In this document: one piece after another, positions 20,187-29,711 of the stretch
Layout of the letters: each line of letters opens with the position of its first letter
Numbering within the stretch: the first letter of the stretch is position 1
Source: Bryobacteraceae bacterium
GTDB taxonomy: Bacteria; Acidobacteriota; Terriglobia; Bryobacterales; Bryobacteraceae
Assembly: GCA_030041985.1 (NCBI GenBank)
Contig: JASIAM010000225.1
Span: forward strand, 1 to 37,923
Direction of reading: 5' to 3'
Length of the DNA: 37,923 nt
Notes under the pieces: generated by a model
The model's input: only the letters and a program-made list of their open reading frames with translations
Database searches by the model: none
Told to the model about the DNA's origin: nothing
Translations under genes and position numbers: made by a program

Positions 20187-20209
20187 AGTTATCAGTTTTC
20201 AGTTATCAG
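20187..20209. repeat. Heptamer repeat (TTATCAG/TTTTCAG) after the dehydrogenase gene
   Basis: GTTATCAG, TTTTCAG and TTATCAG follow each other in register just six bases after the stop codon of the dehydrogenase gene. The unit is the same as in the elements near 2.1 and 24.3 kb, but only one arm is present. Confidence 0.6.
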
Positions 20210-20215
20210 CCCCCC

Positions 20216-20251
20216 AAAAAAATGTGGCGCAGGTTGGGTTGCCTGCGCCAC
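20216..20251 (-). terminator. Intrinsic terminator of TonB-dependent receptor A
   Basis: On the minus strand GTGGCGCAGG and CCTGCGCCAC form a perfect ten-base stem around an eight-base loop. An A and seven T residues follow directly. It lies 25 bases after the stop codon of the receptor gene. The core GGCGCAGG/CCTGCGCC recurs after receptor B at 25730-25752. Confidence 0.85.
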
Positions 20252-20276: not shown

Positions 20277-23200
20277 TCAGAATGAGAAGCGTGCGATGAT
20301 CGTGCCTGTGCGGCCCAACAGGTAGGGCGCCGTGGCATAAACGCTGCCGGTCGGCAAATAGGCGTCGATGACGCCGAACCCGCTGGTGAGAATGGAGCCA
20401 TTGCCCGCGCCCCTGACCACCGGGTTCTGCGGATTCACCGTGCTCGGCGCAGGCATCAACGTACGGTTGAAGATGTTCACAAATTCGGCGCGGACGGAGA
20501 GGTTGTAAGTATGGTCTCCGCGATGCACGCGAAAATTCCGGCCGATATTGGCATTCTCAGAGGGGATCCGCGGAGCGCGGAAATCTTTGTAGTAAACCGT
20601 GGCGGTGGTGGAACCCGCGAAGCCAGGACCGGCTGCCGCGCAAACGCCATTTTGAGGGCATGGCTCCCAGGCGGCTGGATTCAACACCTGCGTGTTGTAG
20701 GGGTTGTAGGTGCCCAGGTCGTTGATGTTGACGCCGGAAGTATACAAGGGCGCGCCCGGAACCCGGATATCCTCGCTGGGGAGGAAATTCAGAGTGGGGC
20801 TGATCGGAGGAGCCAGAAATTGGCCGCTCTGATAATTCGAGAACCAGCCCACCTGCCAATCGCTGACAATCGCGTTGGCAACTTTCGGCAGGAACGAAGC
20901 TTTGGGCACTACGTAGATCAAATTGAAGTTCAGATCGAACGGCGGGATCTGCTGCAATTCCCACCGGGCGCTCTGGTCATTGAAAAAGTCCTGGGGAGCG
21001 GGGCGCAAGAAGCCCTGGGCCCAGGTGAAGGAGCCGCCAGCCTGTAGGCCATGAGAAAGGCGCTTGGTGGTTTTGATCTGTAGCGAATCGTACTTGGAAT
21101 CACCCGTGGGGGAATTGGAGGGCTCGATCGCGCCGTATTGCGGGAAGGGATAAAGAGCGCTCTGCAGCGAGCTGGACATCGGGAACCCGGCATAGGGCAC
21201 CGGCAGTTTGACCCCACGCGAAGCCAGCGCGGCAGAGACTTGCGGGCTGTTGAGCGGCTGCTGCAGCAGTAGATAATCGGCGTAGTTGTTGTAACTCGAG
21301 CTGCTGCAGACGCCACTGCCGCTGGAGCAGGGACCAGTTCCCGGATAGGGGTACAAACCATAGGTGGAGTATTGCTGGGCGGAGGTTTGGCTCAGAAAGC
21401 CTGTAGTGATGCCCTGCAGCCAGGCGGCGCGATTGGCCACATAGGAAGCATCCACGATCCAGTTGCTGGTGATTTCCCGCTCGAAGCCCAAGCTGAATTG
21501 GCTGACGCGGGGGGGGCGGTTCTCGTTGGCATCCGGCACATAAGGATCCGATACTCCCGGAATACCGACCGTCCCCGGAACTGGATAGATATAGGGATCG
21601 GTTACCGGCCAGGTGGGCGCCACAATAGCACCCGGAGTGTTGATGTTGACGTATTGCGCGTTGTTCGGGAGGGGAGCCAGGGGATAAACGCCGTTGGTGC
21701 CAATCGTGGCGCCCGCCGCGTTGGCGACGAACTGATAATTGATTCCCCAGCCGCCGCGAAATACTGTCTTTGGCGTGATCTGATAGGCGGCGGCAATCCG
21801 CGGCCCGATTGCATATGGGTAAGCCGACTGGTAGAACGAGCAGTTGCAGGTGCTGGCGTATTGTACGGCGCCGGGATGGCCACCAGCGTTTGCGTTTGCC
21901 AAAGTCTCATCCAACTGGCCTAAGCGTCCGTACTGCTCATGCTCCGGAGTCGCGTAATCCCAGCGCAGGCCGTAATTCAACGTCAGCTTGCGAGTGACTT
22001 TCCAGGAGTCCTGAATGAACAAACCCCACTCCTGATTACCCTCCCGGGTAAACTCGCCTGGGGTTTGCGTTGTCGACGTATAGTCGCCGAGCAGAAAACT
22101 TGCGTAGCCGTAGCCTTGTGTATATCCATTGAAACTCACAGTGGGCGTGAAGGGCTCCGCGGTCGGACCAACTCCGGTTGCCAAAGTCACTCCCGAGAAG
22201 GCCCCGGTGTAAGCCTGCTCCAGATACATCTCGGCGCCCAGTTTGTAAGTATGATTGCCGTGAACCCACGTCGCGTTGGCGTTATAGGTAGGCTTTTCTT
22301 CATAATTCTGTGACTGGATTTGCCCGGACGTTCCGATATTCTGCATGCCGCCTCCGACGGCACCGTTCAAGCAGCCGACGGCGCCCCCGGCGGCTGGCAC
22401 ACACATGCCGGTCACACTGGGGAACTGGCGGTCCTGTACGAAGCCTGTGAGATCGAAATTGGAGGGGTTGAAGCTTAGGAAGGGCGCCCGGTCGCTGAAA
22501 CTGGTGTGATAGTAGCCCGCGCCCAAATGGAGCAGAAGAGTGGGAGTCAGAGTGCGGTCGTAGTTCAAACGGTAAGTGTCGGTGGGAATAAAGGTACCGC
22601 GATAGCCGCCGATCTCCTGCGGCAGACCGTCCGCATTGCCCAGAGGAGAAGAGATCTGGCTCTCAGTGTTGTTGCGCGACCAGTAGAAGGAGACTTTGTC
22701 CTTGGAAGAAATAATCTGATCGATTTTAACCGCCGGAATCGCCGAATAGCGGTTACCGGCGATGCTCCCGTTATAGTTGTTCACGAGGTTGGCGTTTTGG
22801 GGATTGGGAAACAGGTTCTGAAACGCCACGGAACTCGCGGCGAAGCGGCTTGCGGGAATGACATTGTTGGCAAACGGTAGAGCGTACATCAGACCATTGG
22901 CGGCGGTGGCGCGAGAGAGGGGATCGTAGATTTCGTTGGCGTAGGTCGGATGGCCCGCGGGGTCTGTGTAACCGGCGCCGCCTAGAGGAGTGGTCGGGAT
23001 ACCATACGCCGCGCAGAGGCTGCAATTGCCGTTGACGGAAATAGCGGAGAAATCGCCCGTCCGCATCGCGGCGGTGGGCACGGTATCGCTGAAGTTGTAC
23101 TGCGCGCCTTCCAGGTACTGCTCGTAGGCGAAGAAGAAGAAAGTTTTGTCTCTTCCGTCGTAAATTTTGGGGATGCGGACGGGACCGCCGAAGGTGCCGC

Positions 23201-24113
23201 CGAAATCGTTGCGGCGGTTGCGCGGCCTCGCCTTTCCGCCAACACCGTTGCTGGAGAAAGGATCGCCCGCATTCAAGTCTTCATTGACCCACTCTTCAAA
23301 AGCGGTGCCGTGAAACTGATTGGTGCCGGATTTCATGGTCATGTTGATGACTACGCTGCCGGCCTGTCCGAACTCAGGCATGTAATTACTGGTCTGGTAG
23401 GCGACTTCCTGAACCGCGTCTACGTTCGGCTGGGCCATTTGCGTGTAGTCGTAAGTGCCGAAAATGCGAGACGTGGCATCCTGGCCTTCAATGCGCATGG
23501 TCTCCGTGAGGGGCGCGGCAAAGGGACTGGAAGCCGTTGCAAAGGAACCGCCCAGACCATTAATCACGAATGTGCCGCTGGTGGCATAGTCGCTAACTCC
23601 CGGAAGTGTCTCGAGGGTATTGTATGGATTGCGGTATCCGGAGGTGCCGGAGTTGATGGTGCCGATGCCCATGAAGGGGAGGTCGAGAGTCTGCTCCAGG
23701 GTAACGTTGTGGGCCACGTCACCGCTCTCGGTCTTGAGGAGCGATGCCTCTGCGGCAACGGTTACGGTTTCGGTGGCGGCGCCGATTTCGAGAGTAATGT
23801 CTTCCCTCAAGACCTGTGTCGCCGCAATCACCAGATTGGTGTGCGTGTAAGTTTTGAAACCCTGGGCCGTGGCCGTAATTTCATAGTTGCCCACCGGCAG
23901 GTTCGGAATGGCATAATTGCCTGCCGTGGTCGATGCCGCGGAATAATTGGCTCCTGTATCTATGTTCTTGGCGGATACCGTTACTCCGGGGACCACGAGC
24001 CCAGTCGGATCAGTAACAGTGCCCGTGATAGTTCCTGTCGCTCCCTGGCCGAATGCCAGCGAAACCGCAAGCACCAGCCAAGCTACCAGGCGCAAAGACG
24101 CACCAATGCGCAT
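20277..24113 (-). CDS. TonB-dependent receptor A, Oar-like, with carboxypeptidase-regulatory domain
   Basis: This 1278-residue outer-membrane protein begins with a signal peptide ending near SLAFGQG. A carboxypeptidase-regulatory-like domain (about 25-105: GTITGTVTDPTGLVVPGVTV, GNYAIPNLPVGNYEITATA) follows. A TonB-box-like ETVTVAAEA, a plug domain (TMRIEGQDATSR, MPEFGQAGSVVINMTMKSG) and a long barrel ending in GTIIARFSF complete it. The TonB box and plug predict energy-dependent uptake of a large substrate; the Oar-like group is often linked to glycans, peptides or adhesion. Extracellular loops contain several closely spaced cysteines (CSLCAAYG, CNCSFYQ). The ATG at 24113 has AGGAGG seven bases upstream. 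It is a close paralogue of the receptor at 25784-29605. Confidence 0.92.
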   Translation of the reverse strand: MRIGASLRLVAWLVLAVSLAFGQGATGTITGTVTDPTGLVVPGVTVSAKNIDTGANYSAASTTAGNYAIPNLPVGNYEITATAQGFKTYTHTNLVIAATQVLREDITLEIGAATETVTVAAEASLLKTESGDVAHNVTLEQTLDLPFMGIGTINSGTSGYRNPYNTLETLPGVSDYATSGTFVINGLGGSFATASSPFAAPLTETMRIEGQDATSRIFGTYDYTQMAQPNVDAVQEVAYQTSNYMPEFGQAGSVVINMTMKSGTNQFHGTAFEEWVNEDLNAGDPFSSNGVGGKARPRNRRNDFGGTFGGPVRIPKIYDGRDKTFFFFAYEQYLEGAQYNFSDTVPTAAMRTGDFSAISVNGNCSLCAAYGIPTTPLGGAGYTDPAGHPTYANEIYDPLSRATAANGLMYALPFANNVIPASRFAASSVAFQNLFPNPQNANLVNNYNGSIAGNRYSAIPAVKIDQIISSKDKVSFYWSRNNTESQISSPLGNADGLPQEIGGYRGTFIPTDTYRLNYDRTLTPTLLLHLGAGYYHTSFSDRAPFLSFNPSNFDLTGFVQDRQFPSVTGMCVPAAGGAVGCLNGAVGGGMQNIGTSGQIQSQNYEEKPTYNANATWVHGNHTYKLGAEMYLEQAYTGAFSGVTLATGVGPTAEPFTPTVSFNGYTQGYGYASFLLGDYTSTTQTPGEFTREGNQEWGLFIQDSWKVTRKLTLNYGLRWDYATPEHEQYGRLGQLDETLANANAGGHPGAVQYASTCNCSFYQSAYPYAIGPRIAAAYQITPKTVFRGGWGINYQFVANAAGATIGTNGVYPLAPLPNNAQYVNINTPGAIVAPTWPVTDPYIYPVPGTVGIPGVSDPYVPDANENRPPRVSQFSLGFEREITSNWIVDASYVANRAAWLQGITTGFLSQTSAQQYSTYGLYPYPGTGPCSSGSGVCSSSSYNNYADYLLLQQPLNSPQVSAALASRGVKLPVPYAGFPMSSSLQSALYPFPQYGAIEPSNSPTGDSKYDSLQIKTTKRLSHGLQAGGSFTWAQGFLRPAPQDFFNDQSARWELQQIPPFDLNFNLIYVVPKASFLPKVANAIVSDWQVGWFSNYQSGQFLAPPISPTLNFLPSEDIRVPGAPLYTSGVNINDLGTYNPYNTQVLNPAAWEPCPQNGVCAAAGPGFAGSTTATVYYKDFRAPRIPSENANIGRNFRVHRGDHTYNLSVRAEFVNIFNRTLMPAPSTVNPQNPVVRGAGNGSILTSGFGVIDAYLPTGSVYATAPYLLGRTGTIIARFSF

Positions 24114-24183: not shown

Positions 24184-24213
24184 ATGATATCGCCTAGCTT
24201 TGGTGGGTGTCAA
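24184..24213 (-). promoter_or_regulatory. Promoter of TonB-dependent receptor A
   Basis: On the minus strand TTGACA (24208-24213) and TATCAT (24184-24189) are separated by 18 bases. The predicted leader of about 65 bases contains a small CCGCG/CGCGG hairpin at 24147-24162 and the AGGAGG site. The same arrangement precedes receptor B. Confidence 0.65.
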
Positions 24214-24279: not shown

Positions 24280-24383
24280 AGTTATCGGTTATCAGTTTTC
24301 AGTCGTCAATTTTCAGCTTTACTTTACGGATCGCGTTTGCAGTAGCTGATAACTGACAACTGATAACTCGTAACTGACAACTA
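24280..24383. repeat. Long inverted heptamer repeat overlapping a stop codon
   Basis: The left part (24280-24319) is a run of TTATCGG, TTATCAG, TTTTCAG and TTTTCAG units. The right part (24344-24383) carries the complementary units CTGATAA, CTGACAA and CTGATAA. Together they can form an interrupted stem with a central loop of about 24 bases. The TAG stop of the methyltransferase-like gene (24381-24383, minus) is the first unit's edge. Confidence 0.7.
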
Positions 24384-25763
24384 CTTCCGATACCAGCCCA
24401 CGGCCTGGCGTACGCTCACACCCGGAGCCTCGAAGGGTACTACAGTGACTCCCGCCAGGCGCATGGAACTGCCGTCAGAATCGGGAAGACGGTCATTGCT
24501 GAGCAGGAAACCTCCGGGCTTCAGCATGGCGCCCGCGTTGGCGAGCGCCAAGGCTTGCCGGAAGGCATCGTAGTAGACGAAGATATTCGTGCCAATTATC
24601 AGATCGAAGCCGGAATCGCTGCTGTCTGCGCGGGGCGATGTACGGCGTTCGAGAACGATATTGAGGTCCAGTGGCTGGCAGGCGAGCACTACTTCGGGAC
24701 GGACGCGCACGGCCCTGGTCTCCAGATCGTGAAAGATCGCGGGCGGAGCGATAGGCGCGACGGCGGCGCCTATCTGCTCGCCGAGTGATCGCCAGTACGC
24801 CACAAGATCAGGAGGCCAGGAGGCGGCGATGTCACGCGGCAACTGGAGAACGTAGCCGATGTTTTTGGCAGCGCGCTCCCGGGCGCGTTGGACGTGCCCG
24901 ATCACGCGGGGGCTGATGTCGAAAATCGAGAGCGAAAGCGAGCCGGCCTTGGCGAGGCCGAGGCGGAGCAGCGAATCGTAGAGCGCGAAGGGTTGGAGGG
25001 TCTGGGGAGGGTAATAGTCGAAGGCAGAGTCTTCGTTCTTGTCGATGAAATCAAGGCCAGGCCCGATTACGGCCACGCGAGTCACCTGGCCTTCGCGCAG
25101 CAGGCCGCGGGACTTCAGATCGCGCAAGGTCTGCTCGATCGAGAAAGCGGGAATGATGCTGGTATCGAGCGAGAGGCCGCGATCCTGAAATAGAGACGAG
25201 CGGTCCAAAGGCGCGTTATGAACACGCTGGGCATTGTTGGCGCGCTCCGCCAAAGCCCTTCTCTCTTCAACCACGCGCAGGAGATTATTGAGGAGGAAGC
25301 GGCCCGTCTGAGCCGGATCGCCGGCAACAGGATCAATCCCCTGAGTTCGCAGGAGCTGCTGAAGGAATAGGAGCCGCTCGTTATCGCCCGGATTGCGCAG
25401 CCCGCTAACCAGGTCGTCCACCCGCGCCCGCAACACTCCGGCTTTGGAAGCTTCCGTGAGATGCTCCATCAGGATGCGGGGCTGTTTGGTGAACGAGACG
25501 CCGTAAAGCAAAAAATTTACAAGCGTATCCAGATCGCCCTGAGCGAGGCGGGCCCGAATAGCCTTATCTTCCTGCCGCGCCCAGGCGAGCCATTGGGCTT
25601 CACCGGCATTGCGCAACACAGCAGGTAAGCCGTTCGGTTGTGCCTGTAGGATGGGCCGGATGGCGGCATAGGGAGCGAAGGAGCCATCGGCTGCAGGAAG
25701 GGCAAGGGTAGTGCAGAAAAGCAGAAAAAGGCGCAGGCTTGCGACCTGCGCCTTGATCATCAT
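24381..25763 (-). CDS. Exported protein with a methyltransferase-like Rossmann domain
   Basis: The 460-residue protein begins with a convincing signal peptide (IKAQVASLRLFLLFCTTLAL, then PAADG). A helical region of about 190 residues follows, then a domain that looks like a class I SAM methyltransferase. This has motif I RVAVIGPGLDF at 229-239, an acidic strand end FDISPRV at 281-287, DLIIGTNIFVYYDAF at 387-401 and LKPGGFLLSND at 414-424. The last two resemble CheR-type enzymes. SAM is not expected outside the cytoplasm, so either the domain has lost catalysis or the N-terminus is a membrane anchor. The start ATG (25763, or 25760) is only 20 bases after receptor B's stop. No other Met occurs before residue 99. 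Confidence 0.7.
   Translation of the reverse strand: MMIKAQVASLRLFLLFCTTLALPAADGSFAPYAAIRPILQAQPNGLPAVLRNAGEAQWLAWARQEDKAIRARLAQGDLDTLVNFLLYGVSFTKQPRILMEHLTEASKAGVLRARVDDLVSGLRNPGDNERLLFLQQLLRTQGIDPVAGDPAQTGRFLLNNLLRVVEERRALAERANNAQRVHNAPLDRSSLFQDRGLSLDTSIIPAFSIEQTLRDLKSRGLLREGQVTRVAVIGPGLDFIDKNEDSAFDYYPPQTLQPFALYDSLLRLGLAKAGSLSLSIFDISPRVIGHVQRARERAAKNIGYVLQLPRDIAASWPPDLVAYWRSLGEQIGAAVAPIAPPAIFHDLETRAVRVRPEVVLACQPLDLNIVLERRTSPRADSSDSGFDLIIGTNIFVYYDAFRQALALANAGAMLKPGGFLLSNDRLPDSDGSSMRLAGVTVVPFEAPGVSVRQAVGWYRK
25725..25754 (-). terminator. Terminator-like hairpin of receptor B inside the next gene's signal-peptide codons
   Basis: On the minus strand AAGGCGCAGG and CCTGCGCCTT form a perfect ten-base stem with a seven-base loop; the last bases run into TTTTT. 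It lies 30 bases after receptor B's stop codon but also nine bases into the downstream coding sequence, whose residues KAQVASLRLF it encodes. Its core matches the terminator of receptor A. Confidence 0.65.
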
Positions 25764-25783
25764 TTCAGGCTACACCCGGCATC

Positions 25784-28700
25784 TTAGAAGGTGAAGCGGG
25801 CAATGATGGTGCCCGTGCGGCCCTGCAGATAAGCCGTATTGGCGGTGTAGTAGCTGCCGGGAGTATTGTACGCGTCAATCACGCCGAACCCGCCGGTGAG
25901 AATGGTGCCGTTGCCCGCGCCCCGAATCACCGGGTTCTGGGGATTCGAGGTGCTGGGAGCCGGCAGCAAAGTGCGGTTGAAGATGTTGACGAATTCCGCG
26001 CGGATGTAGAGATTGTAGGTGCGGTCCCCCCGGTGCACACGGAAATTGCGGCCTAGGTTGGCATTCTCCGTGGGCGTGCGCGGCCCTTTGAAATCCTTGT
26101 AGAGCAAGCTGGCCGCCGGGAAGCCCTCGAAGTTGTATGCCGAGGGGCAAGTCGCGTCGGTTGGACAGGACTCCCAAGCGGCGGGGTTCAGCACCTGCGT
26201 GGTTAAGGGACTGAAGGTGCTGTGATCGTTGATATTCACGCCCTGGGTATACAGGGGGGCGCCGGGGACCCGAATGTCCTCGCTCGGGAGGAAATTGAGG
26301 GTGGGGCTGGTGGGCGGCGAGAGGAACATGCCGCTTTGATAATTGGAGTACCAGCCGATCTGCCAATCATTGGTAATCGCATTGGCGACCTTGGGCAAGA
26401 ACGAGGCCTTGGGGACCGTGTAAACGGCCGTCAGGTTGAAGTCAAACGTTGGGATCTGCTGCAGCGTCCACCGGGAGCCGGCCGAATTGAAGATATCCTG
26501 AGGCGTGGGCCGCACGAATCCCTGTGCCCAGGCGAAGTTGCTACCGACCTGGAGACCATGCGAGAGGCGTTTGTTGGCCCGGATTTGGAGAGCGTCATAT
26601 TTGGAATCGCCGGTTGGGGAGGTGCTGGGCTCGAGCGCGCCGAACTGCGGGAAGGGATAGAGCGCGCTCTGCAGCGAGCTGGACAAGGGGAAACCGGTGT
26701 ACGGAATCGGCAGTTTGACCCCACGCGAAGCCAGCGCAGACTGCACCTGGGGGCTGCTGAGCGGCTGCTGCAGCAGCAGATAGTCATTGTAGTTGCTGTA
26801 TGTCGAGCTGGGGCAGACCCCGCCTCCACTGCTGCAGGGGCCGGTCCCTGGATACGGATAGAGTCCAAATGAAGCGTACTCCGCGGGAGAGGTTTGGCTG
26901 AGGTAGCCCAGAGGCCCGCCTCCAACGTTGTTAAGCCACACCGCACGGTTGCCTACATAGGAAGCTTCCACCACGAAGTCCCGGGTCAACTCGCGCTGGA
27001 TACTCACGCTCCATTGATTGATGCGCGGGGGCCGGTTTTCATTGGGATCGGACACAAAGGGATCCGAGACGCCTGGTATGCCAACCACACCTAGGGTGGA
27101 GGGGTAGACGCTCGCGTTGGTGACGGGCCAGACCGGCTGCACGATGGCGCCGGGAGTGGAGATGTTGAGGTACTGCGCATTGTTCGGAAGGGGAGCCAGA
27201 GGGTAAATGCCACTCGTGCCTACCACGGCGCCGGCGGGGTTCGATACGAACTGATAATTGATTCCCCATCCCCCGCGGAATACCGTTTTGGGAGTGAGTT
27301 GATAAGCAGCGCTCACTCGCGGCCCGATGCCGTACGGATAAGCGGGTTGATAAAAGGGGCAATTGCACGTGCTGGCGTACTCCACAGCGCCGGGGTGGCC
27401 GCCGGCATTGGCATTGGGTGCAGTTTCATCTAACTGACCCAGGCGCCCGTAGGTTTCATGCTCCGGCGTATTGTAGTCCCAGCGGAGGCCATAATTGAGG
27501 GTCAGCCTGCGGGTCACTTTCCAGGAGTCCTGAAGGAACAGGCCCCAGGTCTGATTGCCTTCGCGGTAGAACTCATTGGGGGTTTGCGTGGTCGAGCTAT
27601 AGTCGCCGAGCAGAAAACTCGCATAGCCGAAGCCCTGGGTAAATCCATTGAAACTCGCCGTGGGTGTAAAGGGTTCTGAAGTTGGCCCAACGCCGGTAGC
27701 AAGCGTAACTCCGGCGATCGTTCCCGTGAGGTTTTGCTCCAGGTACATCTCGGCGCCTAGTTTGTAGGTGTGGTTGCCGTGGACCCATGTCGCATTGGCA
27801 TTGAAGCTAGGTTTCTCTTCGTAGCTCTGCGACTGGATCTGATCAGCGGTACCGACGGTTTGCATGCCGCCGTAGCCCGCGCATCCAGTGGCGCCGAAGC
27901 CGGGAGGTGGCACGCACATGCCGCTGACTGAGGGAAATTGGCGATCCTGGACAAACCCGGTGAGATCGAACTGGGAGGGCTGGAAATTAAGGAAAGGCGC
28001 GCGGTCGCTGAAACTGGTGTGATAGTAGCCCGCACCCAAGTGCAAAAGTAGCGTGGGCGTCAGCGTGCGGTCGTAGTTCAGGCGGGTCGTCCAGGTGGGG
28101 ATGAAAGTGCCACGATACTGGCCGATTTCCAAGGGGAGACCATCCGCATTACCGTACGGAGAGGCCACCTGACTCTGGGTATTGATTCTCGACCAGTAAA
28201 ACGACAACTTATCCTTCGAGGAGATAATCTGATCCATCTTCAGCGAAGGAATAGAGGTATATCGATGCCCGTAGCTGACTCCTGCATAGTTGCCCGTCAG
28301 GTTGGCATTCTGCGCCTCTGGGAAGAGGTTTTGGAAGGCAATGGAACTGGCTGCGAAGCGGCTCTGGGGAATGACATTGTTAGGAAACGGCAGCGCGTAC
28401 ATCAAGCCGTTAGCGGCAGTAGCGCGGGATTGCGGATCGTAGATTTCATTCGCGAACGTCGGGTTGCCCGCCGGGTCTGTGAAGCCCGCGCCGCCCAAGG
28501 GTGTGGTCGGAATGCCGTAGGCTCCGCAGAGACTGCACGTGCCGTTGGCGGAAATCGCCGAGAAATCGCCCGTCCGCATGGCAGCCGTAGGCACCGTGTC
28601 GGTGAATTGGTATGTATTGTTCTCCAGGTACTCCTCATACGCCCAGAAGAAAAAGGTCTTGTCGTGGCCATTGTAGAGTTTGGGAATCACCACCGGGCCG

Positions 28701-29605
28701 CCTAAGGTGCCGCCAAAATCGTTGCGGCGGTTGATGGGGCGCACTTTTCCCCCCTCACCGTTGCTGGTGAACGGATCAGCGGCGTTCAGGTCTTCATTCA
28801 CGAAGTAGTCGAAAAGGGTGCCATGGTACTGATTGGTGCCGGACTTCATGGTCATGTTAAGGACGGCGCTGCCCGCCTGTCCAAACTCAGGCGCATAATT
28901 GCTGGATTGAACCGCGACTTCCTGAATCGAGTCGGCATTCGGCTGAGCCATCTGCGTGTAAACGTAATTGCCCATCATGCGCGAGGTGGCGTCCTGGCCT
29001 TCGATGCGCATGGTTTCGGTGAGCACGAAGCCCGACCCTCCGCCCAATCCATTCACCACGAATGGATTTCCGGCGCTGTACCCGGTCACGCCGGGGAGCG
29101 TTTCCAGTACGTTGTACGGATTGCGGACTCCGGAGGTGCCGGAATTGACTGTCCCAACGCCCAGCATCGGGAGGTCCTGCATCTGCTCGAGAGTGACATT
29201 GTCGCTCACTTCGCCGCTCTCCGTCTTGAGCTGCGAGGCCTCGGCCTCAACGGTAACGGTTTCCGTGGCGGCGCCGACTTGGAGAGCGATGTCTTCCTTC
29301 AGAACCTGTGTCGCCGCAATCGCCAGATTGGTGTGGGTATAAGTCTTGAATCCTTGGGCCTTGGCAGTGATTGTGTAATTGCCGACCGGCAAGTTGGTAA
29401 CGGCATAATTGCCGGCGGCGGTGGAAGCGCCGGAGTACACCGCTCCGGTGTCCGTGTTCGTGGCTTGTACAGTCACTCCCGGGATCACAAGTCCTGTGGG
29501 ATCGGTAATGGTACCAGTAATCGTACCTGTCGCTCCCTGGCCGAACACCAGCGAAACGGCAAACCCCAGCAACGCTACTAAGCGCAGAGCCGAGCCAATG
29601 CGCAT
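25784..29605 (-). CDS. TonB-dependent receptor B, Oar-like, with carboxypeptidase-regulatory domain
   Basis: This 1273-residue paralogue of receptor A has the same domain order. A signal peptide ends near SLVFGQG. The carboxypeptidase-regulatory-like domain follows (GTITGTITDPTGLVIPGVTV), then an ETVTVEAEA TonB-box-like stretch and a plug with TMRIEGQDATSRMMG and PEFGQAGSAVLNMTMKSG. A large barrel ends in GTIIARFTF. Long barrel stretches are almost identical to receptor A (for example TPTLLLHLGAGYYHTSFSDR), while surface-loop regions differ, suggesting related but not identical ligands. The start at 29605 has AGGAGG seven bases upstream. It is followed within 20 bases by the exported methyltransferase-like gene. 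Confidence 0.92.
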   Translation of the reverse strand: MRIGSALRLVALLGFAVSLVFGQGATGTITGTITDPTGLVIPGVTVQATNTDTGAVYSGASTAAGNYAVTNLPVGNYTITAKAQGFKTYTHTNLAIAATQVLKEDIALQVGAATETVTVEAEASQLKTESGEVSDNVTLEQMQDLPMLGVGTVNSGTSGVRNPYNVLETLPGVTGYSAGNPFVVNGLGGGSGFVLTETMRIEGQDATSRMMGNYVYTQMAQPNADSIQEVAVQSSNYAPEFGQAGSAVLNMTMKSGTNQYHGTLFDYFVNEDLNAADPFTSNGEGGKVRPINRRNDFGGTLGGPVVIPKLYNGHDKTFFFWAYEEYLENNTYQFTDTVPTAAMRTGDFSAISANGTCSLCGAYGIPTTPLGGAGFTDPAGNPTFANEIYDPQSRATAANGLMYALPFPNNVIPQSRFAASSIAFQNLFPEAQNANLTGNYAGVSYGHRYTSIPSLKMDQIISSKDKLSFYWSRINTQSQVASPYGNADGLPLEIGQYRGTFIPTWTTRLNYDRTLTPTLLLHLGAGYYHTSFSDRAPFLNFQPSQFDLTGFVQDRQFPSVSGMCVPPPGFGATGCAGYGGMQTVGTADQIQSQSYEEKPSFNANATWVHGNHTYKLGAEMYLEQNLTGTIAGVTLATGVGPTSEPFTPTASFNGFTQGFGYASFLLGDYSSTTQTPNEFYREGNQTWGLFLQDSWKVTRRLTLNYGLRWDYNTPEHETYGRLGQLDETAPNANAGGHPGAVEYASTCNCPFYQPAYPYGIGPRVSAAYQLTPKTVFRGGWGINYQFVSNPAGAVVGTSGIYPLAPLPNNAQYLNISTPGAIVQPVWPVTNASVYPSTLGVVGIPGVSDPFVSDPNENRPPRINQWSVSIQRELTRDFVVEASYVGNRAVWLNNVGGGPLGYLSQTSPAEYASFGLYPYPGTGPCSSGGGVCPSSTYSNYNDYLLLQQPLSSPQVQSALASRGVKLPIPYTGFPLSSSLQSALYPFPQFGALEPSTSPTGDSKYDALQIRANKRLSHGLQVGSNFAWAQGFVRPTPQDIFNSAGSRWTLQQIPTFDFNLTAVYTVPKASFLPKVANAITNDWQIGWYSNYQSGMFLSPPTSPTLNFLPSEDIRVPGAPLYTQGVNINDHSTFSPLTTQVLNPAAWESCPTDATCPSAYNFEGFPAASLLYKDFKGPRTPTENANLGRNFRVHRGDRTYNLYIRAEFVNIFNRTLLPAPSTSNPQNPVIRGAGNGTILTGGFGVIDAYNTPGSYYTANTAYLQGRTGTIIARFTF

Positions 29606-29682: not shown

Positions 29683-29711
29683 ATCATATCGTTGTCGTTC
29701 ATCTGTGTCAA
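29683..29711 (-). promoter_or_regulatory. Promoter of TonB-dependent receptor B
   Basis: On the minus strand a consensus TTGACA (29706-29711) and TATGAT (29683-29688) are separated by exactly 17 bases. They lie about 77 bases before the start codon. This is the best sigma70-type promoter in the window. Confidence 0.8.

Follow-up and report, generated by a model that had tools for sequence, protein, structure and literature searches.

The window, a stretch of 37,923 nucleotides from a Bryobacteraceae bacterium, carries on its minus strand two paralogous receptor genes, receptor A and receptor B, and directly after receptor B a 460-codon open reading frame, to which we refer as the downstream gene (Table 1). 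We take receptor B to be Oar-like, and the last 800 nt of receptors A and B are 72.3% identical. The 6.0 Mb genome of the window (G000) has at least 65 OMP_b-brl_4 receptor matches, 65 being scored among 114 first-look candidates. A promoter-like site, recognized by its match to the consensus only, precedes each of the two receptors, and receptor A therefore need not rely on transcription from receptor B. Repeats of the type ACTGATAACTGAAAACTGATAACT are dispersed at 20187-20210, 24280-24303, 24345-24368 and 2124-2147 (four matches with at most three mismatches, zero expected), three of which flank receptor A on either side.

Table 1. Coordinates of the genes and sequence elements discussed in the text.
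Feature	Position	Strand	Remarks
Receptor B, Oar-like (presumed) TonB-dependent receptor	25784..29605	-	1273 aa; CarboxypepD_reg and OMP_b-brl_4
Promoter-like site 5' of receptor B, TTGACA-17-TATGAT	29683..29711	-	consensus match only
Receptor A, paralogue of receptor B	20277..24113	-	1278 aa
Promoter-like site 5' of receptor A, TTGACA-18-TATCAT	24184..24213	-	consensus match only
Receptor A terminator, GGCGCAGG/CCTGCGCC core	20224..20251	-	non-coding DNA
Downstream gene	24381..25763	-	460 aa; N-terminus resembles a signal peptide (by eye); fold resembles a class I methyltransferase (CheR-like)
Two adjacent in-frame ATG codons 5' of the hairpin	25758..25763	-	likely start
Intrinsic-terminator-like hairpin	25728..25754	-	11 pairs, loop of 5; in frame with the downstream gene
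T-rich tail TTTCTGCTTTTC	25716..25727	-	codes for FLLF, within hydrophobic LFLLF
In-frame CTG in the 3' arm of the hairpin	25734..25736	-	putative alternative start, would give MRLFLLFCTTLALPAADG

The protein encoded by the downstream gene matches nothing in Pfam above the cut-off (best Methyltransf_12, E 0.001) and has a weak profile match to CheR (5ftw, E 0.0071). In its structural model (pLDDT 79.7) the nearest folds are CheR and NNMT, both at high rmsd, and the best match is CheR 1bc5 (E 1.5e-6, TM 0.34 by query and 0.53 by target, rmsd 12.4), for which reason we call the protein methyltransferase-like as a prediction. S-adenosylmethionine (SAM) is cytoplasmic, so the combination of such a fold with an N-terminus that we judged by eye to be signal-peptide-like is odd. 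The motif GPGLDF is invariant among 12 aligned sequences. Eight of 11 named homologue records are metagenome-assembled genomes (MAGs) labelled Bryobacteraceae, Bryobacterales or Terriglobia, and the other three belong to Pyrinomonadaceae, an Acidobacteria groundwater MAG and Bacterium HR08. Matches were found in 34 of 150 genomes of the order at E <= 0.001, and in 30 of 237 genomes of the family at E <= 1e-30, there at 37 places. Further copies of the gene exist in the genome of the window (L053, G000:C175) and in G150 (L052, G150:C200). Immediately 5' of them the sequence at hand shows no receptor match; the gene is thus duplicated and occurs apart from the receptor.

At the junction, the receptor B stop codon TAA (25786-25784) is followed after 29 bases by a hairpin, AAGGCGCAGG-T-CGCAA-G-CCTGCGCCTT (25754-25728, minus strand), which is preceded by nine bases of the 460-codon frame that opens with the ATG at 25763. 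The initial annotation had described this hairpin and its T-run, nine bases into the next coding sequence, and we find both sequence and coordinates as given; only its spacing of 30 bases from the receptor stop was one too many. According to a consensus terminator scan, seven of the 11 stem pairs are G-C. The element has two hallmarks of an intrinsic terminator: a stable G+C-rich stem of at least five pairs with a short loop (-19.5 kcal/mol), and directly 3' of it the T-rich tail TTTCTGCTTTTC with five T in the first eight positions and eight in 12. The T-tract is interrupted, however, and weaker than the tail of receptor A, ATTTTTTT. A 51-nt segment at the hairpin folds with -23.1 kcal/mol (z -4.15), equalled by one of 200 shuffles. 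As the scan returned 13 terminator-like sites in 17.9 kb versus 17.0 in shuffled sequence, its bare criteria say little and the strength of the hairpin is decisive.

Two sites in the 6.0 Mb assembly (98% complete) carry the exact core GGCGCAGG N3-10 CCTGCGCC, namely the receptor B junction and, at 20251-20224, the non-coding terminator of receptor A, where the initial annotation had already recognized it; the reversed control pattern occurs at none. With just these two exact sites genome-wide, a widespread repeat as the origin of the hairpin is ruled out, and no RNA family scored above its gathering threshold in the window. Among 37 strong terminator-like sites in 0.67 Mb of sampled sequence (window included), two fall in the opening 75 nt of a gene that was called as the longest ORF and has another gene before it: the receptor B junction and a site on contig C162 of the same genome, before what we take, from reading its sequence, to be an Xaa-Pro aminopeptidase-like gene. 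We dropped the latter as a second embedded case, an artefact, because a better ATG lies 3' of its hairpin. The receptor B hairpin is not due to chance, and the junction likely represents a receptor gene whose terminator extends into the initial codons of its neighbour.

Several comparisons indicate to which of the two genes the hairpin belongs. Close to the start of the methyltransferase-like gene, four of nine loci with a receptor upstream have a terminator, versus one of 25 loci without (36 loci minus L081, which has a short flank, and L083, whose receptor match is weak and distant; L041, where a receptor remnant is recognizable by eye only, counts as lacking a receptor). Within the receptor subfamily, nine of 28 members, receptors A and B included, have a terminator within 130 nt, versus seven of 280 shuffles; a 29th locus at a contig end is outside this count. 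Moreover, the relative G162 has a second copy of the receptor (L162, G162:C658), with 90.5% identity over the last 800 nt. Behind a differing spacer just past its stop codon, this copy carries the 35-nt hairpin without a single change, whereas the downstream gene there is decayed, with gaps and without an in-frame ATG, GTG or TTG 5' of the hairpin. From both counts and from the intact hairpin at the decayed gene we conclude that the hairpin serves the receptor. The scanned stretch of the remaining five of the nine receptor-bearing loci held no terminator. In the genome of the window only eight of 62 OMP_b-brl_4 family members with enough 3' flank, receptors A and B included, have a recognizable one within 160 nt (10 of 310 in mononucleotide shuffles), so that hairpin terminators are not the rule for its receptors.

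We examined the junction at 36 of the 37 places in the family (G206:C524 yielded no locus; the weaker matches L018-L032 are outside the counts). A receptor-like match lies upstream on the same strand at 10 of the 36 loci, at eight of them within 175 nt. Among these eight tight pairs, the scan places a terminator inside the reading frame in two (the window and G162) and before the likely start in two (G028 and G155), and finds none in four. G155 has, in addition, an in-frame GTG inside its hairpin, but it is a GTG 3' of the hairpin that appears, from reading the sequence, to yield a signal peptide like those of the family. The four pairs without a terminator by scan comprise G046 and G154, where none was found at all, as well as G150 and G099, where the terminator search in the first codons was likewise negative and where by eye a hairpin without U-tract (G150) and an imperfect hairpin (G099) can be seen inside the frame; in G150, the receptor stop and the ATG of the next gene share bases (TGATG). 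In G048, a strong terminator (-36.0 kcal/mol) directly follows the receptor, and the downstream gene is 479 nt off. As the scan detects no terminator inside the frame in six of the eight tight pairs, the embedding is not conserved. In G162, the frame offers a single ATG, GTG or TTG after the preceding stop codon and ahead of the hairpin, a GTG located 18 nt 5' of AAGCCGCAAAG...CTTTGCGGCTT; the next in-frame starts are TTG codons 23, 25 and 26, whose use would remove most of the hydrophobic stretch. Relative to the mature domain, the beginning of the hairpin is at -72 nt both in the window and in G162, and position and frame are thus the same. The group that joins the two downstream genes has moderate support (90/84), which does not establish that the embedding arose only once.

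None of 2000 synonymous recodings of the first 30 codons carries a terminator as strong as that of the window, and 24 of 2000 reach the strength of that of G162; consequently, the hairpin is not a by-product of the encoded peptide. The folding of the entire first 90 nt is not significant against synonymous recodings: 337 of 2000 fold as low for the window, 360 for G162, 602 for G150 and 781 for G099. It is the terminator-shaped hairpin alone that stands out, in the window and G162 only. The embedding by itself is weak evidence of design: when the spacer is mononucleotide-shuffled, 39% of the shuffles contain an in-frame ATG, GTG or TTG from which the frame stays open as far as the hairpin (14% if only ATG is counted), and the corresponding figure for G162 is 33%. 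Counted from the outer end, pair 4 of the stem changes from G-C in the window to C-G in G162 without any mismatch, inner pairs change from G-C to A-T, and G162 has one pair more; between receptors A and B the two outermost pairs differ (A-T to G-C and A-T to T-A). These three distinct stems, aligned by eye and open to convergence, suggest that pairing in the stem is preserved as its bases change.

Taken together, we regard it as fairly probable that the hairpin is the own, leaky intrinsic terminator of receptor B, which throttles a downstream gene expressed by read-through. What carries this reading is the hairpin itself, its likeness to the receptor A terminator, the intact reading frame, the matching arrangement in G162 and a hairpin that outlasts a decayed gene; we infer that transcription ends here but leaks, that translation starts from the ATG at 25763 or 25760, and that the protein is exported. 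Receptor B would be transcribed from its own promoter and the transcript mostly halted at the hairpin. The downstream gene abuts the terminator, its frame probably opening before the hairpin and running through it, so that the hairpin would code for the charged end of the signal peptide and the T-tract for part of its hydrophobic core. The fraction of transcripts that leaks through would carry the downstream gene and yield small amounts of its product, coupled to the transcription of the receptor. With a poor Shine-Dalgarno sequence in front of the ATG and a stable hairpin just behind it, a low yield is to be expected.

The alternative that survives best, although we consider it unlikely, is a mis-set start: translation would begin at the CTG at 25736 within the 3' arm to give MRLFLLFCTTLALPAADG, the hairpin would not code for the N-terminus but bury the CTG and its upstream AGG, and the nine open codons before it would be accidental, as the 39% of shuffled spacers with an open in-frame start would allow. 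The Shine-Dalgarno score at the CTG (-5.8) beats that at the ATG (-3.8 kcal/mol, versus -11.6 and -11.0 for the receptors), and several homologues (G028, G046, G032_C28, G073_C25, G003) begin with M/V-R-L. Furthermore, the number of residues before the conserved D/G/E after Ala-Ala is 16 from the CTG and 25 from the ATG (28 from the GTG of G162). In ten homologues in which no embedded hairpin precedes the start it is 16-24, a range that includes the value for the CTG and ends just below that for the ATG. On the other hand, CTG is a rare start codon, and two in-frame ATG codons, at 25763 and 25760, lie just upstream. A MAFFT alignment, which contains gaps, puts the starts of the homologues closer to the ATG of the window; an alignment of their M/V-R-L starts with the CTG is not seen in it, and the length count is neutral. 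Finally, G162 lacks an in-frame CTG in its first 40 codons and keeps its signal peptide only by the GTG 5' of the hairpin.

Expression of the downstream gene by read-through only, as the initial annotation had considered, is probable; against it stands, with little credence on our part, a separate promoter inside the 3' part of receptor B, with the hairpin acting as an attenuator at the beginning of the transcript of the downstream gene, in the manner of frd/ampC of Escherichia coli. The closest upstream candidate on the minus strand matches the promoter consensus weakly, at 9 of 12 positions (26366-26339), and the consensus scan finds none between 26339 and the start of the gene. Matches in the scanned region hardly exceed chance (10 versus 6.3 expected), but Acidobacteriota promoters may not fit the consensus used, and the gene copies of relatives without a receptor match directly upstream must be transcribed otherwise.

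We find similarly little room for the translation-linked attenuation switch proposed in the initial annotation, by which a ribosome re-initiating at the ATG at 25763 or 25760 after receptor B would cover or melt the hairpin and let the polymerase pass. By geometry, a ribosome at one or the other ATG would occupy the greater part of the 5' arm; the two-sided changes of stem pairs between the species of the window and G162 keep hairpin and frame, and the overlapping stop and start in G150 fit coupled translation. The comparison of relatives, which returned the same embedding in G162 and differing arrangements in G028, G155, G046, G154, G150 and G099, weakens the proposal: Neither the position of the hairpin nor the U-tract is conserved. 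Likewise, the Shine-Dalgarno sequence at the ATG is weak, the G162 start would lie beyond covering distance at initiation, and the polymerase would need to wait at the U-tract for re-initiation. The most far-reaching version, a dual-purpose element whose bases would be receptor terminator and signal-peptide codons of an exported, enzyme-like protein at once, kept by paired substitutions between the species of the window and G162, with ribosome entry into the signal peptide deciding on polymerase passage and coupling the protein to receptor translation, is equally improbable.

Leaky termination between genes is familiar: Intercistronic intrinsic terminators with partial read-through occur in bacterial operons. 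The receptor B junction resembles them in its hairpin and T-rich tail between co-directional genes, the second of which has no convincing promoter by scan; unlike theirs, which lie in the gap, the hairpin is inside the frame of the second gene. In Escherichia coli, the frd terminator doubles as the ampC attenuator at the beginning of the next transcription unit; an action of ribosomes on this hairpin has been proposed, and it lies in the untranslated leader of ampC, which has its own promoter. The placement at the beginning of the next unit is shared, whereas the receptor B hairpin is in codons and no convincing promoter of the downstream gene was found. Mutations of the ampC attenuator are described in the literature (PMC8430887). 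Term-seq in E. coli, as far as the accessible part of that report goes, revealed premature 3' ends, some of them at intrinsic terminators, in 5' UTRs and inside reading frames (PMC7815308); these are comparable as stop signals in 5' UTRs or coding sequence, but mostly affect the gene's own transcript, whereas the receptor B hairpin would serve the upstream gene. A literature search at the level of titles and abstract openings, with subscription literature thinly covered, returned no description of this junction.

Overall, the junction looks like a modest, mostly ordinary tight gene junction and not a proven new switch; a translation-linked switch is possible but unsupported. If the start of the frame is right, it is a clear case of one stretch of DNA that serves one gene as terminator and encodes the signal peptide of its neighbour, with a second case in a relative. 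Start-codon calls beside terminators also need care, and as a U-tract is readily read as Phe and Leu codons, terminators may easily be absorbed into signal peptides.
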